A DNA stretch of 43,956 nt. Origin: an uncultured Bacteroidales bacterium. GTDB lineage: Bacteria > Bacteroidota > Bacteroidia > Bacteroidales > Paludibacteraceae. Every line of letters starts with the position of its first letter. Position 1 is the first letter of the stretch. The stretch is taken from the NCBI GenBank assembly GCA_902784425.1, contig CACZUS010000013.1, positions 1 to 43,956 on the forward strand, written 5' to 3'. Shown piece by piece: positions 2,409 to 37,243 of this stretch. The notes beneath the pieces were generated by a model. It searched no databases, was not told the DNA's origin, and saw only the letters and a program-made list of their open reading frames with translations. The position numbers were made by a program, and so were the translations under genes.

Positions 2409-3849
2409 TGAGAATGTGACCTCACCAGCAATCTATGTCAGTCTGTTGGATCAGTTTGTTGAGGCTGGCATATATGACAAGGAGGATAATCCCGACTTTG
2501 CGGGTGATCCTCTTTATGCATACCTTATGTCTATGATGCGCGACCCATGGCTTCGTAGCAGAGTGTTGAAAGACAGTGTGCAGTCTGCCGTGTTTTATAA
2601 TATCACGCTCGATTTCATCTTCCAACAATTGAAGATGTATCAATATCAATTTGCGAGAAACCAATCTATCCAAAATAAGATCAAGGAGGCGCATGAGTGG
2701 GAACTCAATAAGCGGCAGGATGGTTGGAGGGCTTTGATGCAGGAGGTGGAAGAACGCAATCCTGGTTTTACCTCCTATTATGGACAGAAGTTTCAGAAAG
2801 AGGAGAATCTTTCCGATGATATTCTGTGGCAACATTTCTTGGATGATTGGAAAGAGATGGAGATGAAACAGGTTATGCGACAGTGTCGTGAAGAGACGGA
2901 GCAGAGATGTCCGTCTGTTGCTCAACAGACAAGGGTGTCGATGCAGGAGGTGGAGGAGTATGTGAAGAAGAATAACATATCGGAGGAAGATTTTTTGCAA
3001 GCATGGAGTGCCATGAGTGGAATATGGAACTCAACACTGTTCGAACGGTTGCGTAAGATTATACAAGTACAGAAACGATACCCTGTGCTAAATCAGATAG
3101 CTAATAAGATGGGACGAATTGCCAGTGAGGAGAGTCATCATCAGATGACGGTTTCCAGTGGAAAGGTATATCAGATGACGCATGCCTCCAAGAGTGATGT
3201 GTCGGGGGTGACAGTGGGTAATGATTTGAATTCGATGTTGCCGTTGGAGGTGGCGCAAGCTTCGGATGAACGGTTGTCAGACTTGTTTCTTTATAAGTAT
3301 GCCTCACATCGTCTGCAGACCTTTTCATATCGTAGTGAGATCTACAAACCCATTCATCATTTAGTCACTCAGCCAGCGAAGCGTAAGGGACCCATGATAG
3401 TCTGTTTGGACACATCAGGAAGCATGATTGGGGAACCAGAAAAGATAAGCAACTCTTTGCTGTTGCGATTGTTGGAGATAGCAGATAGGCAACGACGAGA
3501 TCTATATCTGCTCTCATTTTCCGTATCAGTTTATCCAATAGATGTGAAGAAGGAGCGAGCGCGATTGTTTGATTATTTTAAGAAGAGTGCGTCGGGCGAC
3601 ACAAATGCGCGAAGTATGATGATAAAGATGTTTGAGTTATTGCATCATCATGCCGATTATATGAGTTCGGATGTGTTGTGGATTAGTGATTTCAAGATTC
3701 CGTTGGTGGAGCAAGCCTTGTTGGATGAGATGCGAGAGAGTCGACGTAATGGCACCTTTTTCTACGGATTGCAGATTGGAATGAATGCCCGTCAGGATTG
3801 GGATGCCTATTTTGACGAGAAGTATGAGTTGAAACTTTTGACTCGTTGA
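2398..3849 (+). CDS. viaA: ViaA: VWA-domain partner of RavA
   Basis: A 483-residue protein with a helical N-terminal part (about 1-325) and a C-terminal von Willebrand factor A domain. The metal-ion-dependent adhesion site is intact: 'CLDTSGSM' gives D338-x-S340-x-S342, and 'WISDF' near residue 430 is the typical later VWA strand. In RavA-ViaA systems the VWA protein recruits the MoxR ATPase to its client. The ORF begins inside the end of ravA (ATGGCGAGTGA), which fixes the start. The length matches enterobacterial ViaA (~480 residues). No terminator is obvious just downstream; the next 340 bases hold the carB leader. Confidence 0.9.
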   Translation: MASDENVTSPAIYVSLLDQFVEAGIYDKEDNPDFAGDPLYAYLMSMMRDPWLRSRVLKDSVQSAVFYNITLDFIFQQLKMYQYQFARNQSIQNKIKEAHEWELNKRQDGWRALMQEVEERNPGFTSYYGQKFQKEENLSDDILWQHFLDDWKEMEMKQVMRQCREETEQRCPSVAQQTRVSMQEVEEYVKKNNISEEDFLQAWSAMSGIWNSTLFERLRKIIQVQKRYPVLNQIANKMGRIASEESHHQMTVSSGKVYQMTHASKSDVSGVTVGNDLNSMLPLEVAQASDERLSDLFLYKYASHRLQTFSYRSEIYKPIHHLVTQPAKRKGPMIVCLDTSGSMIGEPEKISNSLLLRLLEIADRQRRDLYLLSFSVSVYPIDVKKERARLFDYFKKSASGDTNARSMMIKMFELLHHHADYMSSDVLWISDFKIPLVEQALLDEMRESRRNGTFFYGLQIGMNARQDWDAYFDEKYELKLLTR

Positions 3850-3965
3850 GAAGAAGGAAGATGAAAAACCATTTTGAGAGAAAATAATAGGGTAAAAAAG
3901 AAAAATTCATGCAAGTCCGATAAATACGCACTTTGTGATTTTTTTTGAAAAAAATTCATATTTCG

Positions 3966-3999
3966 CTTGCAAAGTGTAATGAAAAAAAGTGTAACTTTG
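3966..3999 (+). promoter_or_regulatory. Putative promoter of the carB leader transcript
   Basis: TAACTTTG at 3992-3999 matches TAnnTTTG. CTTG at 3966-3969 lies 22 bases upstream, slightly longer than the usual 19-20 spacing. Transcription would start near 4006, about 185 bases before the carB start codon. Confidence 0.55.
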
Positions 4000-4053
4000 C
4001 ACCCAATATAAAAAAACGAATTATTTAGAATCAAAGTAATAAAAAAAGAAAAT

Positions 4054-4122
4054 ATGTCCGTACCTCATTACATATACAAGAATTGGGATGATGTAAAGGC
4101 ATTGTTTTTTTATTCCTATTGA
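4054..4122 (+). CDS. Possible 22-residue leader peptide of carB
   Basis: ATG at 4054 opens a 22-codon frame rich in aromatic residues at its end (FFYSY, then TGA). It sits just after a good promoter and ends 9 bases before a terminator-like hairpin. A ribosome at the stop codon would cover the 5' arm of that hairpin. The last codons run through a T-rich stretch: 22 of the 31 bases at 4101-4131 are T. This is the arrangement of the enterobacterial pyrBI leader. I cannot show that it is translated, and no ribosome-binding site is obvious, which is normal in this phylum. Confidence 0.5.
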   Translation: MSVPHYIYKNWDDVKALFFYSY

Positions 4123-4131
4123 TTTTTTGTT

Positions 4132-4160
4132 GCGGTGGTTGTTACCTCCGCTTTTTTTTT
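4132..4160 (+). terminator. Terminator-like hairpin in the carB leader (candidate attenuator)
   Basis: GCGGTGGT (4132-4139) pairs with ACCTCCGC (4144-4151) with one mismatch over 8 positions and a 4-base loop. Nine T residues follow (4152-4160). It lies between the leader promoter and carB, so it would end carB transcripts early unless disrupted. Confidence 0.7.
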
Positions 4161-4190
4161 GTGTGAAAGTTATTTTAAGAGATTAGATAT

Positions 4191-7100
4191 ATGAAATCAC
4201 AGAAAGTTAAAAAGGTTATTTTGCTAGGATCCGGAGCTTTGAAAATCGGACAAGCCGGAGAGTTTGATTACTCTGGTTCACAAGCTCTGAAAGCTATGCG
4301 TGAAGAGGGTATCTCCACGGTGTTGATCAACCCTAATATCGCTACGATCCAAACGTCGGAGGGCGTTGCTGATAAGGTTTATTTCTTGCCGATCACTCCT
4401 TATTTCGTTGAGGAAGTTATAAAGAAAGAAAAACCAGATGGTATCTTGTTAGCTTTCGGTGGACAAACAGCCTTAAACTGTGGTACTGAGCTTTACACTT
4501 CAGGTACGTTAGAGAAGTATGGCGTTCAGGTGTTGGGTACTTCTGTAGATGCTATTATGATTACAGAGGATCGTGACTTGTTTGTTAAGAAATTGAATGA
4601 GATTCAAGCTAAGACTCCAGTATCTCAGGCTGTTGAGAATATGGACGATGCTTTGACTGTGGCACGTAGAATAGGTTATCCAGTGATGGTTCGTTCTGCA
4701 TACGCATTGGGAGGTCTTGGTTCAGGTATTTGTGCTAACGAAGAGGAGTTCGTTGAACTATGTGATAGCGCACTTGCACATTCCAAGCAAATCCTTGTAG
4801 AAGAGTCTTTGAAGGGATGGAAAGAGATCGAGTTTGAGGTGATTCGTGATAAGAATGATCACTGCTTCACGGTTGTTCCTATGGAGAATTTCGACCCACT
4901 AGGAATCCATACAGGAGAGAGTATCGTAGTGGCACCGATCATTTCATTGACAGAAGAACAAATCAACCTTTTGCAAGAGATTGCTAAGAAGGTGGTTCGT
5001 CATATTGGAATCGTTGGTGAGTGTAATATTCAGTTTGCCTTCAATGCTGAGACAAACGATTATCGTATTATCGAGATCAACGCTCGTTTGAGCCGTTCAT
5101 CAGCTTTGGCATCTAAGGCTTCTGGTTATCCATTGGCTTTCGTTGCCGCTAAGTTGGCATTGGGTTATTCATTGGATCAAATTGGAGAGATGGGTACGCC
5201 AAACTCTGCGTATGTAGCTCCATCAGTTGATTATATCATTGTTAAGATTCCACGTTGGGATTTGTCTAAGTTTGTCGGTGTTGATCGTGAGATTAACTCA
5301 TCCATGAAGTCTGTGGGTGAAATCATGTCAATCGGTAAATCGTTCGAAGAGATCATGCAAAAAGGTCTTCGTATGATTGGTCAGGGCATGCACGGATTTG
5401 TTGGAAACCATGATTTGGAATTCGATGATCTGGATAAGGAGTTGTCTCACCCAACAGATATGCGTATTTTCGCTATCGCTGCAGCTTTGGAGAAGGGCTA
5501 TTCTATCGAGAAGATCGTTGACCTTACTAAAATCGACAAGTGGTTTATTGGTAAGTTGAAGAATATTGTTGACTATACGAAAGTATTGGGTCAATACAAG
5601 AAGATCGAAGATATCCCTGCAGATGTGATGAAAGAGGCAAAACGCCTTGGATTCTCCGATTTCCAAATCGCTCGTTACACAGAGAACCCATCCAACAATA
5701 TGGAGAAGGAATCACTTCGTGTTCGTTCATTGCGTAAGAAACAAGGAATCACTCCGTTTGTTCGTCGTATCAACACCATCGCTTCTGAGCATCCTGAGTT
5801 GACCAACTACTTGTATATGACATACGGCGCAGACGAACATAGCATCGATTATTCATACAGAAACGATAAGAACATTGTCGTATTAGGTTCTGGTGCATAC
5901 AGAATTGGCTCGTCCGTAGAGTTTGACTGGTGTTCTGTAAATGCCGTTCAGACAGCTCGTAAGTTGGGTTACAAGTCTATCATGATCAACTACAACCCAG
6001 AGACTGTATCAACAGACTATGATATGTGCGACAGACTTTATTTCGATGAGTTGAGTTTTGAGCGTGTATTGGATGTGATTGATTTGGAAAATCCTAAGGG
6101 TGTGATTGTCTCTGTAGGAGGTCAGATTCCAAACAACTTGGCAATGAAGTTGTACCGTCAGAATGTTCCAGTATTAGGAACTTCACCAGTTTCCATCGAC
6201 CGTGCAGAAAACCGTCATAAGTTCTCTGCTATGTTGGATCAGTTGGGTATCGACCAGCCACGTTGGGGTGAGTTGACCAGTCCGGAAGATATCGACAACT
6301 TCATCAAGGAGGTAGGATTCCCAGTGTTGATTCGTCCATCTTACGTACTTTCTGGAGCTGCGATGAATGTATGTTACAACCGTGAGCAAATGGATACCTT
6401 CTTGAAGATGGCAGCTAAGGTGTCAAAAGAGTATCCAGTGGTAGTATCCTCATTCTTGCAGAATGCGAAAGAGGTTGAGTTTGATGCCGTTGCTAAGAAT
6501 GGTGAAATCATTGAATACGCTATTTCAGAGCACGTAGAGTTTGCTGGAGTACACTCAGGAGATGCCACATTGGTATTCCCAGCACAGAAGTTGTATTTAG
6601 AGACTGTACGTCAGATTAAGAAGGTAAGTAAGAAGATCGCTAAGGAGTTGAACATCAGTGGTCCGTTTAACATTCAATACTTGGCAAAGGAGAATGCTGT
6701 TAAGGTAATTGAGTGTAACCTTCGTTCATCACGTAGTTTCCCATTTGTATCTAAGATATTGAAGAGAAACTTCATCGAGACAGCCACTAAGATTATGTTG
6801 GATGTTCCAGTGGAGAAACCAGATTCATCAACATTCGACATTGAGTATGTAGGAGTTAAGGCATCTCAGTTCTCATTTGCACGTTTGCACAAGGCAGATC
6901 CTATCTTGGGTGTTGATATGTCATCTACAGGAGAGGTAGGATGCTTAGGAGCAGATTTCGATGAGGCATTGATTAATTCATTGACATCCGTAGGATATCA
7001 TGTACCAGAGAAGGGTATTTTGGTATCATCTGGAGATATCCGTGGAAAGGTTGATTTGTTGGATGCATGTAAATTATTAGATTCTCATGGTTATAAGATA

Positions 7101-7412
7101 TACGCTACAGAAGGAACTAGAAACTTCTTGGTAGAGCATGGAGTGAATGCCATTGCAGTAAGCTGGCCAGATGAGAATAATCACAATGTAAACATAATCT
7201 CTTTGTTACAAGAACATCAAGTGGATTTGGTTATCAACATACCAAAGAACCATACGAAGAGAGAGTTGACCAATGGATATAAGATTCGTCGTTCAGCTAT
7301 TGATCACAACATTCCGTTGATGACGAATGCGAGATTGGCAAGTGCGTTTATTAAAGCATTCTGCGAAAAATCAAAGCAAGATATCCAAATAAAGAGCTGG
7401 CAAGAGTATTAA
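4191..7412 (+). CDS. carB: Carbamoyl-phosphate synthase large subunit
   Basis: This 1073-residue protein has the same length as E. coli CarB and shows the full duplicated architecture: two carboxyphosphate/carbamate ATP-grasp halves (about 1-400 and 555-935), a helical oligomerisation part between them, and an MGS-like allosteric domain at the C-terminus (about 940-1073, with 'YATEGTRNFL'). It makes carbamoyl phosphate from bicarbonate, ATP and ammonia supplied by the small subunit CarA, feeding pyrimidine and arginine synthesis. No carA lies in the window, so the subunit genes are not adjacent here at least on this side. Regulation is probably through the upstream leader hairpin, and a strong terminator follows. 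There is no sign of truncation. Confidence 0.96.
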   Translation: MKSQKVKKVILLGSGALKIGQAGEFDYSGSQALKAMREEGISTVLINPNIATIQTSEGVADKVYFLPITPYFVEEVIKKEKPDGILLAFGGQTALNCGTELYTSGTLEKYGVQVLGTSVDAIMITEDRDLFVKKLNEIQAKTPVSQAVENMDDALTVARRIGYPVMVRSAYALGGLGSGICANEEEFVELCDSALAHSKQILVEESLKGWKEIEFEVIRDKNDHCFTVVPMENFDPLGIHTGESIVVAPIISLTEEQINLLQEIAKKVVRHIGIVGECNIQFAFNAETNDYRIIEINARLSRSSALASKASGYPLAFVAAKLALGYSLDQIGEMGTPNSAYVAPSVDYIIVKIPRWDLSKFVGVDREINSSMKSVGEIMSIGKSFEEIMQKGLRMIGQGMHGFVGNHDLEFDDLDKELSHPTDMRIFAIAAALEKGYSIEKIVDLTKIDKWFIGKLKNIVDYTKVLGQYKKIEDIPADVMKEAKRLGFSDFQIARYTENPSNNMEKESLRVRSLRKKQGITPFVRRINTIASEHPELTNYLYMTYGADEHSIDYSYRNDKNIVVLGSGAYRIGSSVEFDWCSVNAVQTARKLGYKSIMINYNPETVSTDYDMCDRLYFDELSFERVLDVIDLENPKGVIVSVGGQIPNNLAMKLYRQNVPVLGTSPVSIDRAENRHKFSAMLDQLGIDQPRWGELTSPEDIDNFIKEVGFPVLIRPSYVLSGAAMNVCYNREQMDTFLKMAAKVSKEYPVVVSSFLQNAKEVEFDAVAKNGEIIEYAISEHVEFAGVHSGDATLVFPAQKLYLETVRQIKKVSKKIAKELNISGPFNIQYLAKENAVKVIECNLRSSRSFPFVSKILKRNFIETATKIMLDVPVEKPDSSTFDIEYVGVKASQFSFARLHKADPILGVDMSSTGEVGCLGADFDEALINSLTSVGYHVPEKGILVSSGDIRGKVDLLDACKLLDSHGYKIYATEGTRNFLVEHGVNAIAVSWPDENNHNVNIISLLQEHQVDLVINIPKNHTKRELTNGYKIRRSAIDHNIPLMTNARLASAFIKAFCEKSKQDIQIKSWQEY

Positions 7413-7422
7413 TCTTGTCTTT

Positions 7423-7459
7423 AAAGGTGGCATTTGAGGCTACAAATGCCACCTTTTTT
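7423..7459 (+). terminator. Rho-independent terminator of carB
   Basis: A perfect 14-bp stem, AAAGGTGGCATTTG (7423-7436) with its complement at 7443-7456, has a 6-base loop and runs into six T residues. It starts 10 bases after the carB stop codon. Confidence 0.93.
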
Positions 7460-35983: not shown

Positions 35984-37243
35984 ATGATAATGAAAGGTAG
36001 ATTATACGGTTCTTTGTGTTTGTTTTTCTTTTACTTCTTGTGTGTCTCCGTGATGCAGGCGCAAGAAGTGGATTCTTTATCCTTAAAAAATGGTGAAAAA
36101 AAACTGCTGTTTTTCCCTGTTATCTTCGATTCTATCAAGAATTCTGACTTCTTTCCTATCCTTGAAACACCCGTGTTGGATTATAAAAAAAACCAACCTT
36201 CGGTTTTTACAAGCACCAAATTTGAAAAGCAATGTGAGTTGATGATTCTGAATGAGAAGATTCGCCGAAAGGTGGTAAACCGTATTTCTGTTGAAACGCC
36301 TCATCTGATTGATTATTGTAACTTGAAGCCATACGATGAAGAGATGGAAAAGGCTCATGTGTTGGATCAAATGATTATTGTGAGCGGATTGGAACCTTCA
36401 ATGAAAGGAATCGTCGTGGAGGAGAAAAAAATTAACATACGTCAACGCGAAAATACGAATTGGACTTATGAAGGAAATTTGGCTATGCAATTTTCCCAAT
36501 ATTATGTGACAGACAACTGGTATAAGGGAGGTACGCCGAACGCTACACTCTTGTCGATATTGGAATATTCTGTTATCTATCGTAAGAATCGATTCATGTG
36601 GGATAACAACTTCGACATCAAGATAGGATTCTACAACACTGAGGTGGATACCATACGTGCCTTCCGTGTCAACAATGACTTGTTTGATGTGACAACAATG
36701 GTCGATTATCAGACCTGGTTCTCTAAAAAGGTCTATTATAGTGCTGCGGTAAATTTCAGGACATCCTTCTTTACAGGATATAAGAAGACCAATTCTGATG
36801 AGGTGGTCTCTGCTTTTTTGTCTCCTACCCGTATGTTCTTCAGTTTGGGAATGGAGTGCCGTTATAATAATAAGACCTCCATCCGTATATCCCCATTGGC
36901 TTATAAATTGCTTTTCAGTATTGACGATCGTATCAAACCGGAACATGTGGGATTGGATAGCACGGAGACCTATGTCACCTATCCAGGTTGCTTGCTTCAG
37001 GCAAAAATTGATTGGAAGGTATCGAAGGAGATTAATTTTCAGTCGAATGTGGATTTCTTCTCCTCCTATAAGGGCAAGAATATAGAATTCGACTGGGAGG
37101 TGGTCGGTAAGTTTGCCATCAACCGTTATCTGGGTACACGCCTTTCATTGATTATGCGATATGACAATACTCCGAAAGATGAGGATATAAAGGTACAGAT
37201 ACAAGAACAACTCTCGTTTGGCTTTAATTATACGTTTAGGTGA
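35984..37243 (+). CDS. DUF3078-type outer-membrane protein
   Basis: A 419-residue protein with a signal peptide ending 'MQAQ' near residue 27; ATG 35984 or 35990 could start it. The second half (from about 145) is a series of amphipathic strands with the DUF3078 hallmark 'NWYKGGTPNATLLSILEYSVIYRKNRFMWDNN' (split over 178-209), and ends 'FGFNYTFR'. DUF3078 proteins are predicted outer-membrane barrels of Bacteroidota without an assigned function. The N-terminal ~120 residues have no recognised domain. It is followed closely by the aldehyde dehydrogenase. Confidence 0.8.
   Translation: MIMKGRLYGSLCLFFFYFLCVSVMQAQEVDSLSLKNGEKKLLFFPVIFDSIKNSDFFPILETPVLDYKKNQPSVFTSTKFEKQCELMILNEKIRRKVVNRISVETPHLIDYCNLKPYDEEMEKAHVLDQMIIVSGLEPSMKGIVVEEKKINIRQRENTNWTYEGNLAMQFSQYYVTDNWYKGGTPNATLLSILEYSVIYRKNRFMWDNNFDIKIGFYNTEVDTIRAFRVNNDLFDVTTMVDYQTWFSKKVYYSAAVNFRTSFFTGYKKTNSDEVVSAFLSPTRMFFSLGMECRYNNKTSIRISPLAYKLLFSIDDRIKPEHVGLDSTETYVTYPGCLLQAKIDWKVSKEINFQSNVDFFSSYKGKNIEFDWEVVGKFAINRYLGTRLSLIMRYDNTPKDEDIKVQIQEQLSFGFNYTFR

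Follow-up and report, generated by a model that had tools for sequence, protein, structure and literature searches.

Architecture of the carB1 leader

The window, the whole stretch of 43,956 bases analyzed here, contains a carB gene preceded by a compact series of leader elements, all on the plus strand:

3992–3999, plus strand: Bacteroidota-type −7 promoter box TAACTTTG, matching TAnnTTTG
4054–4122, plus strand: leader ORF of 22 codons, MSVPHYIYKNWDDVKALFFYSY, with stop codon TGA
4101–4131, plus strand: U-rich tract (22 T in 31 bases) covering the last leader codons and the gap up to the hairpin, the presumed pause region of RNA polymerase
4132–4151, plus strand: hairpin of the predicted intrinsic terminator (attenuator), GCGGTGGT-tgtt-ACCTCCGC, with seven pairs and one U–U (T–T in the DNA) mismatch
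4152–4160, plus strand: T run of the terminator, nine T
4191–7412, plus strand: carB (carB1), large subunit of carbamoyl-phosphate synthase, 1073 amino acids, a solitary paralogue and the gene presumed to be controlled

The promoter-like box, the short ORF, the T-rich stretch and the nine T residues ahead of carB agree with a preliminary description of this DNA, as does the distance of 9 bases between the end of the leader stop codon and the hairpin. The hairpin reported there is also present, although its eight base pairs are in fact seven pairs and a T–T mismatch. TAACTTTG is the sole TAnnTTTG (consensus given in PMC9723704) within 3850–4190, and transcription would be expected to start a few bases 3′ of it. 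The architecture thus places an intrinsic terminator, at which termination is predicted, between the promoter and a pyrimidine gene.

With both strands of the window considered, equal T-richness over 31 bases occurs at one other place only (36009). The stretch at 36009–36043 encodes, as judged by eye, a hydrophobic N-terminal segment and is not an attenuator. The carB-leader hairpin is absent from the list produced by a generic terminator scan of the window, which we take to be caused by the T–T mismatch. In addition, a strong 14-pair terminator is located directly after the carB stop codon (7423–7456). No Rfam family reaches its gathering score within 3500–4700, and sub-threshold matches, such as L20_leader (25.7 against a threshold of 58.7), are taken as chance.

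Conservation of the hairpin among relatives

Among the best 80 carB relatives, which were kept for comparison, a terminator-like hairpin is found about 59–113 bases before the carB match in 42 loci, the distance being 59 in the window. The carriers are labelled Bacteroides, Phocaeicola, Parabacteroides, Tannerellaceae, Paludibacteraceae and unplaced Bacteroidales. Among the same 80 loci, the hairpin was not seen in those labelled Muribaculaceae (the doubtful L052 aside), Paraprevotella, Petrimonas and Proteiniphilum, nor in P. distasonis (L058), the Massilibacteroides loci and some Bacteroides and Phocaeicola. L052, with a T-rich hairpin 173 bases upstream, and L081, L097, L110 and other loci with a hairpin farther upstream were left out of the count; L104 has no upstream sequence and L065 only 117 bases of it. 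In L081, TATCTTTG is located between the hairpin and carB.

Within the genus, carB1 is present in 15 of the 16 genomes searched, and all 15 copies are preceded by the hairpin. Named relatives put the genus of the window in the rumen Bacteroidales, with several records labelled Paludibacteraceae. A fresh order-wide sample of 148 genomes yielded carB1 at no less than 77% identity in 16. The 14 upstream regions from this sample contain a hairpin in six cases by scan and in one more, L211, by eye; two of these seven leaders repeat L042 and L061. L219 was excluded, its match beginning inside the gene.

The stem itself shows covariation. In 22 aligned leaders, both sides of a pair are changed in 16 cells, compared with 4.0 in shuffles, and 94% of the cells are paired, compared with 27–49% in slid versions of the alignment. 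The three basal pairs are invariant. The model R1 matched the carB leaders in 14 of the 16 genus genomes and missed that of G015, which is seen in the upstream scan. Seven further R1 matches lie elsewhere, six of them at gene ends (some assigned by eye) and one, L258 (E 0.084), unplaced.

A leader reading frame kept open with a variable peptide

The 56 leaders fall into 37 clusters at 85% identity, L032 and L049 being omitted from the statistics as near-identical to leaders already in L005 and L010. An ORF with an ATG start, at least 18 codons and a stop from 15 bases before to 25 bases after the start of the 5′ arm occurs in 29 of the 37 clusters, against 5.69 ± 2.13 in dinucleotide shuffles. 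L056, a tRNA with its terminator, was dropped after this count, and L078 qualifies only through a 19-codon frame that is not conserved in its relatives, so that a strict view gives 27 of 36. The eight clusters failing the rule are of several kinds: the ORF of L007 continues past the hairpin; the frame of L014/L029 starts with GTG and is related to the peptide of L008; L075, L079, L089, L090 and L095 have ORFs of 8–15 codons; and L064 has neither a fitting ORF nor, even by a relaxed rule, a promoter box. Four of five further leaders from the order-wide sample conform, and in the fifth, L211, the ORF runs through the hairpin. Frames extending past the hairpin are found only in L007/L033, L010, L078 and L211. 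The leaders are usually 19–44 codons long, and most stops lie from −19 to +24 relative to the start of the 5′ arm.

Related leaders were compared in 19 pairs, which comprise 550 codons and are not all independent, and 111, 100 and 179 differences fall at codon positions 1, 2 and 3; in the same pairs, with the same reservation about independence, 189 codon changes are nonsynonymous and 74 synonymous. Many changes thus alter the peptide; by its substitution pattern, the reading frame appears to be kept and the peptide only loosely so. Peptides are partly conserved within groups and, judged by eye, look unrelated between groups, while the order and position of the elements persist. The leader ORF is therefore best described as an open frame, variable at the third position, that would bring a ribosome onto the terminator, and its translation is predicted. 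The preliminary description had named the absence of a conserved ORF or hairpin in relatives as evidence against an attenuator; the hairpin in 42 of 80 loci and the ORF in 29 of 37 clusters point the other way. The ORF count relative to shuffles and the covarying stem pairs indicate that both elements are more than chance.

The U tract is conserved without its amino acids

All 36 representatives were used for the U-tract statistics and the T-content comparison, and the 35 with an ORF for the frame test. The 40 bases before the hairpin contain on average 46.5% T and 23.8% A, and the preceding 50 bases 28.4% T; the T content rises into the last 40 bases in 33 of the 36 representatives (Wilcoxon p = 2.4e-6). 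For comparison, 63 gene-end terminators of the window and the 80 loci have 29.2% T on average in the corresponding 40 bases. At least 45% T precedes the hairpin in 23 of 36 leaders versus one of 63 gene-end terminators. The tract is weak in L060 (17% T), L095 (20% T) and L089 (30% T).

Codon choice within the tract is shifted in the same direction. Codons ending in a pyrimidine use T in 225 cases and C in 64, where the usage of the leaders' own carB genes predicts 141.6 T, and in the 5′ part of the leader ORFs the figures are 139 T and 78 C. Fourfold-degenerate codons of the tract are just slightly T-rich (77 T among 176, 66.1 expected). The triplets TTT and TTC (TTY) account for 76 of 450 in frame; out of frame, the counts are 68 of 447 and 95 of 436. 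The lack of a frame preference suggests that U is what is kept, and neither Phe nor Tyr. Moreover, the tract that ends in FFYSY in the window ends in VFCSC in its near relative L006 and in VVVVI in L046. By this comparison U appears conserved and the amino acid free. Sensing of Phe or Tyr supply, which the preliminary description had offered as an alternative on account of the FFYSY end, is disfavoured by this codon turnover together with the absent frame preference. The leaders carry a U-rich tract ahead of the terminator, in which pausing of RNA polymerase is predicted.

Pairing within the leader RNA

The test for a partner of the terminator 5′ arm covered 29 of the 36 representatives, and the tests for complementarity to the U tract covered all 36. 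No excess complementarity of the leader to the 5′ arm was detected in the 29 (mean z +0.26, Stouffer +1.38), and a trp-type antiterminator is therefore unlikely. All 36 leaders taken together show more complementarity between their 5′ part and the U tract than shuffled sequences do (mean z −1.21, Stouffer −7.26, 13 of 36 below −1.96), and the same test on the 63 gene-end terminators gave +1.06. When both halves were shuffled and other windows were used, the signal was weaker, with Stouffer −4.64 versus −1.64 for controls; E. coli pyrL has z −1.65 in this version. In the window, the tract at 4101–4131 is complementary to an A-rich stretch ahead of the leader start, and the leader folds with z −2.48. 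One such pairing joins about 4026–4050, in the 5′ part of the leader, with 4101–4128. In the predicted folds of many leaders, too, the U tract pairs with sequence around the leader start or ahead of it, and the tract may thus also close the leader start to ribosomes. This helix lacks support from covariation: 53 of 131 changed pairs are kept, and double changes comprise six kept and four broken. L059, L061, L066, L068, L073, L085 and L100 have a U-rich tract for which the windows tested gave no such complementarity. A hairpin that would pause the polymerase locally, just 5′ of the tract, was considered and rejected as weak overall (Stouffer −2.45), z being below −1.7 only in L059, L068, L070, L071 and L073.

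Promoters and regulators

A strict TAnnTTTG is located upstream of the hairpin in 24 of the 36 leader representatives and between the hairpin and carB in none of the 36. In 22 of 36 cases the relaxed promoter rule picks up the T run of the terminator itself; this rule was left unused. PyrR-dependent attenuators control pyr genes in Firmicutes. In none of 21 genomes did a PyrR profile score above cut-off (19 gave weak matches below it), while 6 of 14 controls did so, and a PyrR attenuator was rejected for this reason.

carB paralogues and other pyrimidine genes

The genome of the window contains a second carB with 64% identity to carB1, which sits in a glutamate-synthase/CTP-synthase cluster, gltB-gltD-pyrG-carA-carB-asnB (gene names read from translations). 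carA scores above cut-off in 17 of the 21 genomes, and in all 17 it is followed by the second-type carB. The carB of the window is the solitary type, apart from carA. In four genomes carB1 and its leader are present and carA gave no match at all (G002, 99% complete, and G030) or none above cut-off (G011 and G029); a CarB working without CarA is possible there, or carA may be missing from the assemblies. In L044 and L048, carA closely follows carB1, and in the genome of L044 (L156) the second carB also closely follows carB1-carA. One leader could control carB1, carA and the second carB in that genome.

The same hairpin scan was applied to the 170 bases upstream of other pyrimidine genes. No hairpin was found in this interval before carA (0 of 17), pyrD (0 of 18), pyrE (0 of 20) or pyrF (0 of 20); one was found before 1 of 14 second-type carB genes (L228) and before 7 of 21 pyrB genes, and the pyrB loci L116 and L117 were added by eye. 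L228, from the order sample, combines the second-type carB with a GTG-start, U-rich frame of 27 codons ending in the hairpin. In six genus genomes (L117, L119, L120, L121, L123 and L124), the pyrB leader has its hairpin 61–68 bases before the match, formed by a stem around AACCAATGCGA and followed by a T run. These pyrB leaders are A-rich, contain mini-ORFs of 6–11 codons with stops 9–18 bases before the hairpin, and are U-poor, with 6–9 T in the 40 bases before it. Sensing by a U tract can thus not account for every terminator leader in these bacteria. Upstream of pyrB in L113 and L114, the stop of a gene of about 100 codons lies 8–15 bases before a terminator hairpin.

Comparison with known attenuators

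The pyrBI leader of E. coli (pyrL) presents the same elements in the same order, namely promoter, leader ORF, T-rich stretch inside the ORF, intrinsic terminator and pyrimidine gene; a short ORF, a uridine-rich stretch overlapping it and control by UTP are reported for pyrBI (PMC3641672). The leader pyrL has 44 codons, and its start 89 bases before the 5′ arm is within the range of the Bacteroidales leaders. The pyrL frame passes through the hairpin, its stop lying 43 bases after the start of the arm, whereas most Bacteroidales stops lie between −19 and +24. A frame running through the terminator, as in E. coli, is thus not found in the window, and we treat this as a matter of geometry that does not define the mechanism. 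The two also differ in the 40 bases before the arm, which contain 14 T and 16 C in pyrL and 24 T and 3 C in the window. The present element stands on carB and in another phylum, and the likeness is one of anatomy; we claim no common descent.

Other systems share part of this anatomy. The intercistronic rph-pyrE attenuator of E. coli has an upstream frame that ends just before the terminator. The pyrB loci L113 and L114 resemble it, with the stop of the upstream gene close before the terminator that precedes pyrB, whereas the frame upstream of carB1 is a short leader and not a gene of normal size. Attenuators of the trp/his type also combine a leader ORF with a terminator and share a possible leader stem that a ribosome would open; unlike them, the carB leaders have no partner for the 5′ arm (29 leaders) and no repeated in-frame regulatory codon. 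The PyrR attenuators of Firmicutes are similar in placing terminators before pyr genes and differ in that no PyrR was found above cut-off in the 21 genomes. E. coli carAB encodes the same enzyme and is also partly UTP-responsive. Its promoter P1 is reported to use UTP-dependent reiterative transcription at initiation together with DNA-binding regulators, and P2 is described as not subject to attenuation (PMC6245113).

A putative translation-coupled attenuator

Taken together, our analysis leans, at somewhat better than even confidence, towards a translation-coupled attenuator on carB1 that would work like pyrBI, would probably sense UTP and would be common to many Bacteroidales. The comparison of leaders shows a conserved ORF, U tract and terminator in conserved order and spacing, with no conserved partner for the 5′ arm in 29 leaders; from this arrangement we infer that the leader is translated, that transcription can end at the hairpin, that the polymerase pauses and that UTP is the signal. 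Transcription would begin at TAnnTTTG, and a ribosome would translate the leader. Of its usually 19–44 codons, the last 10–15 lie in the U-rich tract, and the stop is placed directly ahead of the terminator or within it. When UTP is plentiful, the polymerase would cross the tract fast, the ribosome would lag, the hairpin would form and transcription would end before carB. When UTP is scarce, the polymerase would stall in the tract, and the ribosome would reach the stop codon and cover the 5′ arm, so that carB would be transcribed. In E. coli constructs, a terminator is described as repressed with a stop codon close by and as regaining full efficiency beyond about 27–30 bases (PMC4824070), and pyrL is reported to depend on tight coupling (PMC5021804). 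The main text of a study on runaway transcription leaves Bacteroidota unmentioned (PMC13323073). The pyrBI-type architecture proposed in the preliminary description thus gains strong comparative support, and the UTP sensing proposed with it fits as a probable function of a tract that may also engage in pairing. Two observations weigh against the UTP part: UTP pausing does not explain the U-poor pyrB terminator leader of the genus, and the U-richness of the carB leaders may be structural, given its complementarity to the leader 5′ part. Also counting against the attenuator as a whole are the merely slight T-richness of fourfold-degenerate codons, the many changes that alter the peptide, and those leaders in which the tract is weak, the ORF is short or absent, or the frame runs past the hairpin.

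The latter observation leads to a different reading, rather unlikely in our view, in which the U tract owes its retention to pairing within the RNA and not to UTP sensing. Once transcribed, it would pair with the purine-rich region around the leader start and shut out ribosomes; an early ribosome would open the way past the terminator and a late one would be locked out, so that the switch would read leader initiation or general polymerase speed. The excess complementarity in the 36 leaders (Stouffer −7.26), its absence from the 63 gene-end terminators, its persistence in weaker form with both halves shuffled (−4.64 versus −1.64 for controls), the folds that join start region and tract in many leaders and the folding of the window leader (z −2.48) all fit such a partner. 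The changed pairs, however, show no covariation (53 of 131 kept; double changes six kept and four broken), seven leaders (L059, L061, L066, L068, L073, L085 and L100) are U-rich without complementarity in the windows tested, and such pairing is in any case compatible with UTP sensing. It is improbable that the ribosome-coupled attenuator reads charged tRNA supply (Phe or Tyr) or general translation capacity and not UTP. TTY triplets are equally common out of frame, FFYSY in the window is replaced by VFCSC in L006 while the tract of L046 ends in VVVVI, and Trp-type attenuators require an antiterminator partner for the 5′ arm, of which there is no signal. Such sensing would nevertheless accommodate Phe as the commonest tract residue (76 of 450 codons) and the genus pyrB leader with its terminator and mini-ORFs and no U tract, and in Flavobacterium the regions preceding amino-acid operons are reported to give strong indications of leader-peptide attenuation (PMC9723704).

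The remaining readings detach the terminator from leader translation or from a metabolite. If the leader were a small gene or sRNA in its own right, ending at the hairpin as its gene-end terminator, carB would be transcribed from a separate promoter, yet a strict TAnnTTTG lies between hairpin and carB in none of the 36 representatives, the bases before the hairpin are far richer in T than those before gene-end terminators, and the peptides look unrelated between groups (by eye) while order and position persist. We regard this as very unlikely, even though R1 also matches similar stems at ordinary gene ends (six of the seven non-carB matches, some by eye) and the peptides are partly conserved within groups. 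Control of the terminator by an RNA-binding protein or riboswitch, with an incidental ORF, seems very unlikely as well: PyrR scores above cut-off in none of the 21 genomes (19 have weak matches below it, and 6 of 14 controls exceed it), no Rfam family reaches its gathering score within 3500–4700 and the ORF is kept open beyond chance, against which stand the precedent of PyrR attenuators at Firmicutes pyr genes and a leader that folds better than its shuffles. The terminator might finally be a fixed attenuator that sets a low basal level, with leader translation tuning read-through and no metabolite signal. Several leaders without a strong U tract would suit this arrangement, which we consider very improbable, as the tract is retained in most lineages despite codon turnover and, among the pyrimidine genes scanned, hairpins precede carB1 and some pyrB and not carA, pyrD, pyrE or pyrF.

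Beyond the translation-coupled attenuator itself, we offer a wider and distinctly tentative scenario. A pyrBI-like element would have originated independently in the Bacteroidales on carB1 and would have persisted across lineages that include Paludibacteraceae, Bacteroides and Parabacteroides. The U tract of this element would serve a double duty, slowing the polymerase at low UTP and pairing with the leader start, so that a late ribosome would be locked out and an early one would open carB. This would imply close coupling between the polymerase and the leading ribosome in Bacteroidota, and the genus pyrB would carry a second, U-poor attenuator.

Implications for pyrimidine regulation in Bacteroidales

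Our search of the available literature found no description of a pyrimidine attenuator in Bacteroidota. To our knowledge, ribosome-coupled UTP sensing is known from enterobacteria. The B. thetaiotaomicron transcriptome is reported to include long 5′ UTRs with short ORFs that recall the leader peptides of attenuators, in a paper whose main text does not use the word "pyrimidine" (PMC7366714), and the operons named in the Flavobacterium paper are amino-acid operons (PMC9723704). A conserved Bacteroidota counterpart, if confirmed, would represent convergent evolution of a regulatory principle. It would also provide a natural reporter that makes transcription–translation coupling testable in Bacteroidota. 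In addition, the attenuator would separate the two carB paralogues by regulation, and it would suggest how common gut bacteria in which PyrR is not detectable adjust the first step of pyrimidine synthesis.
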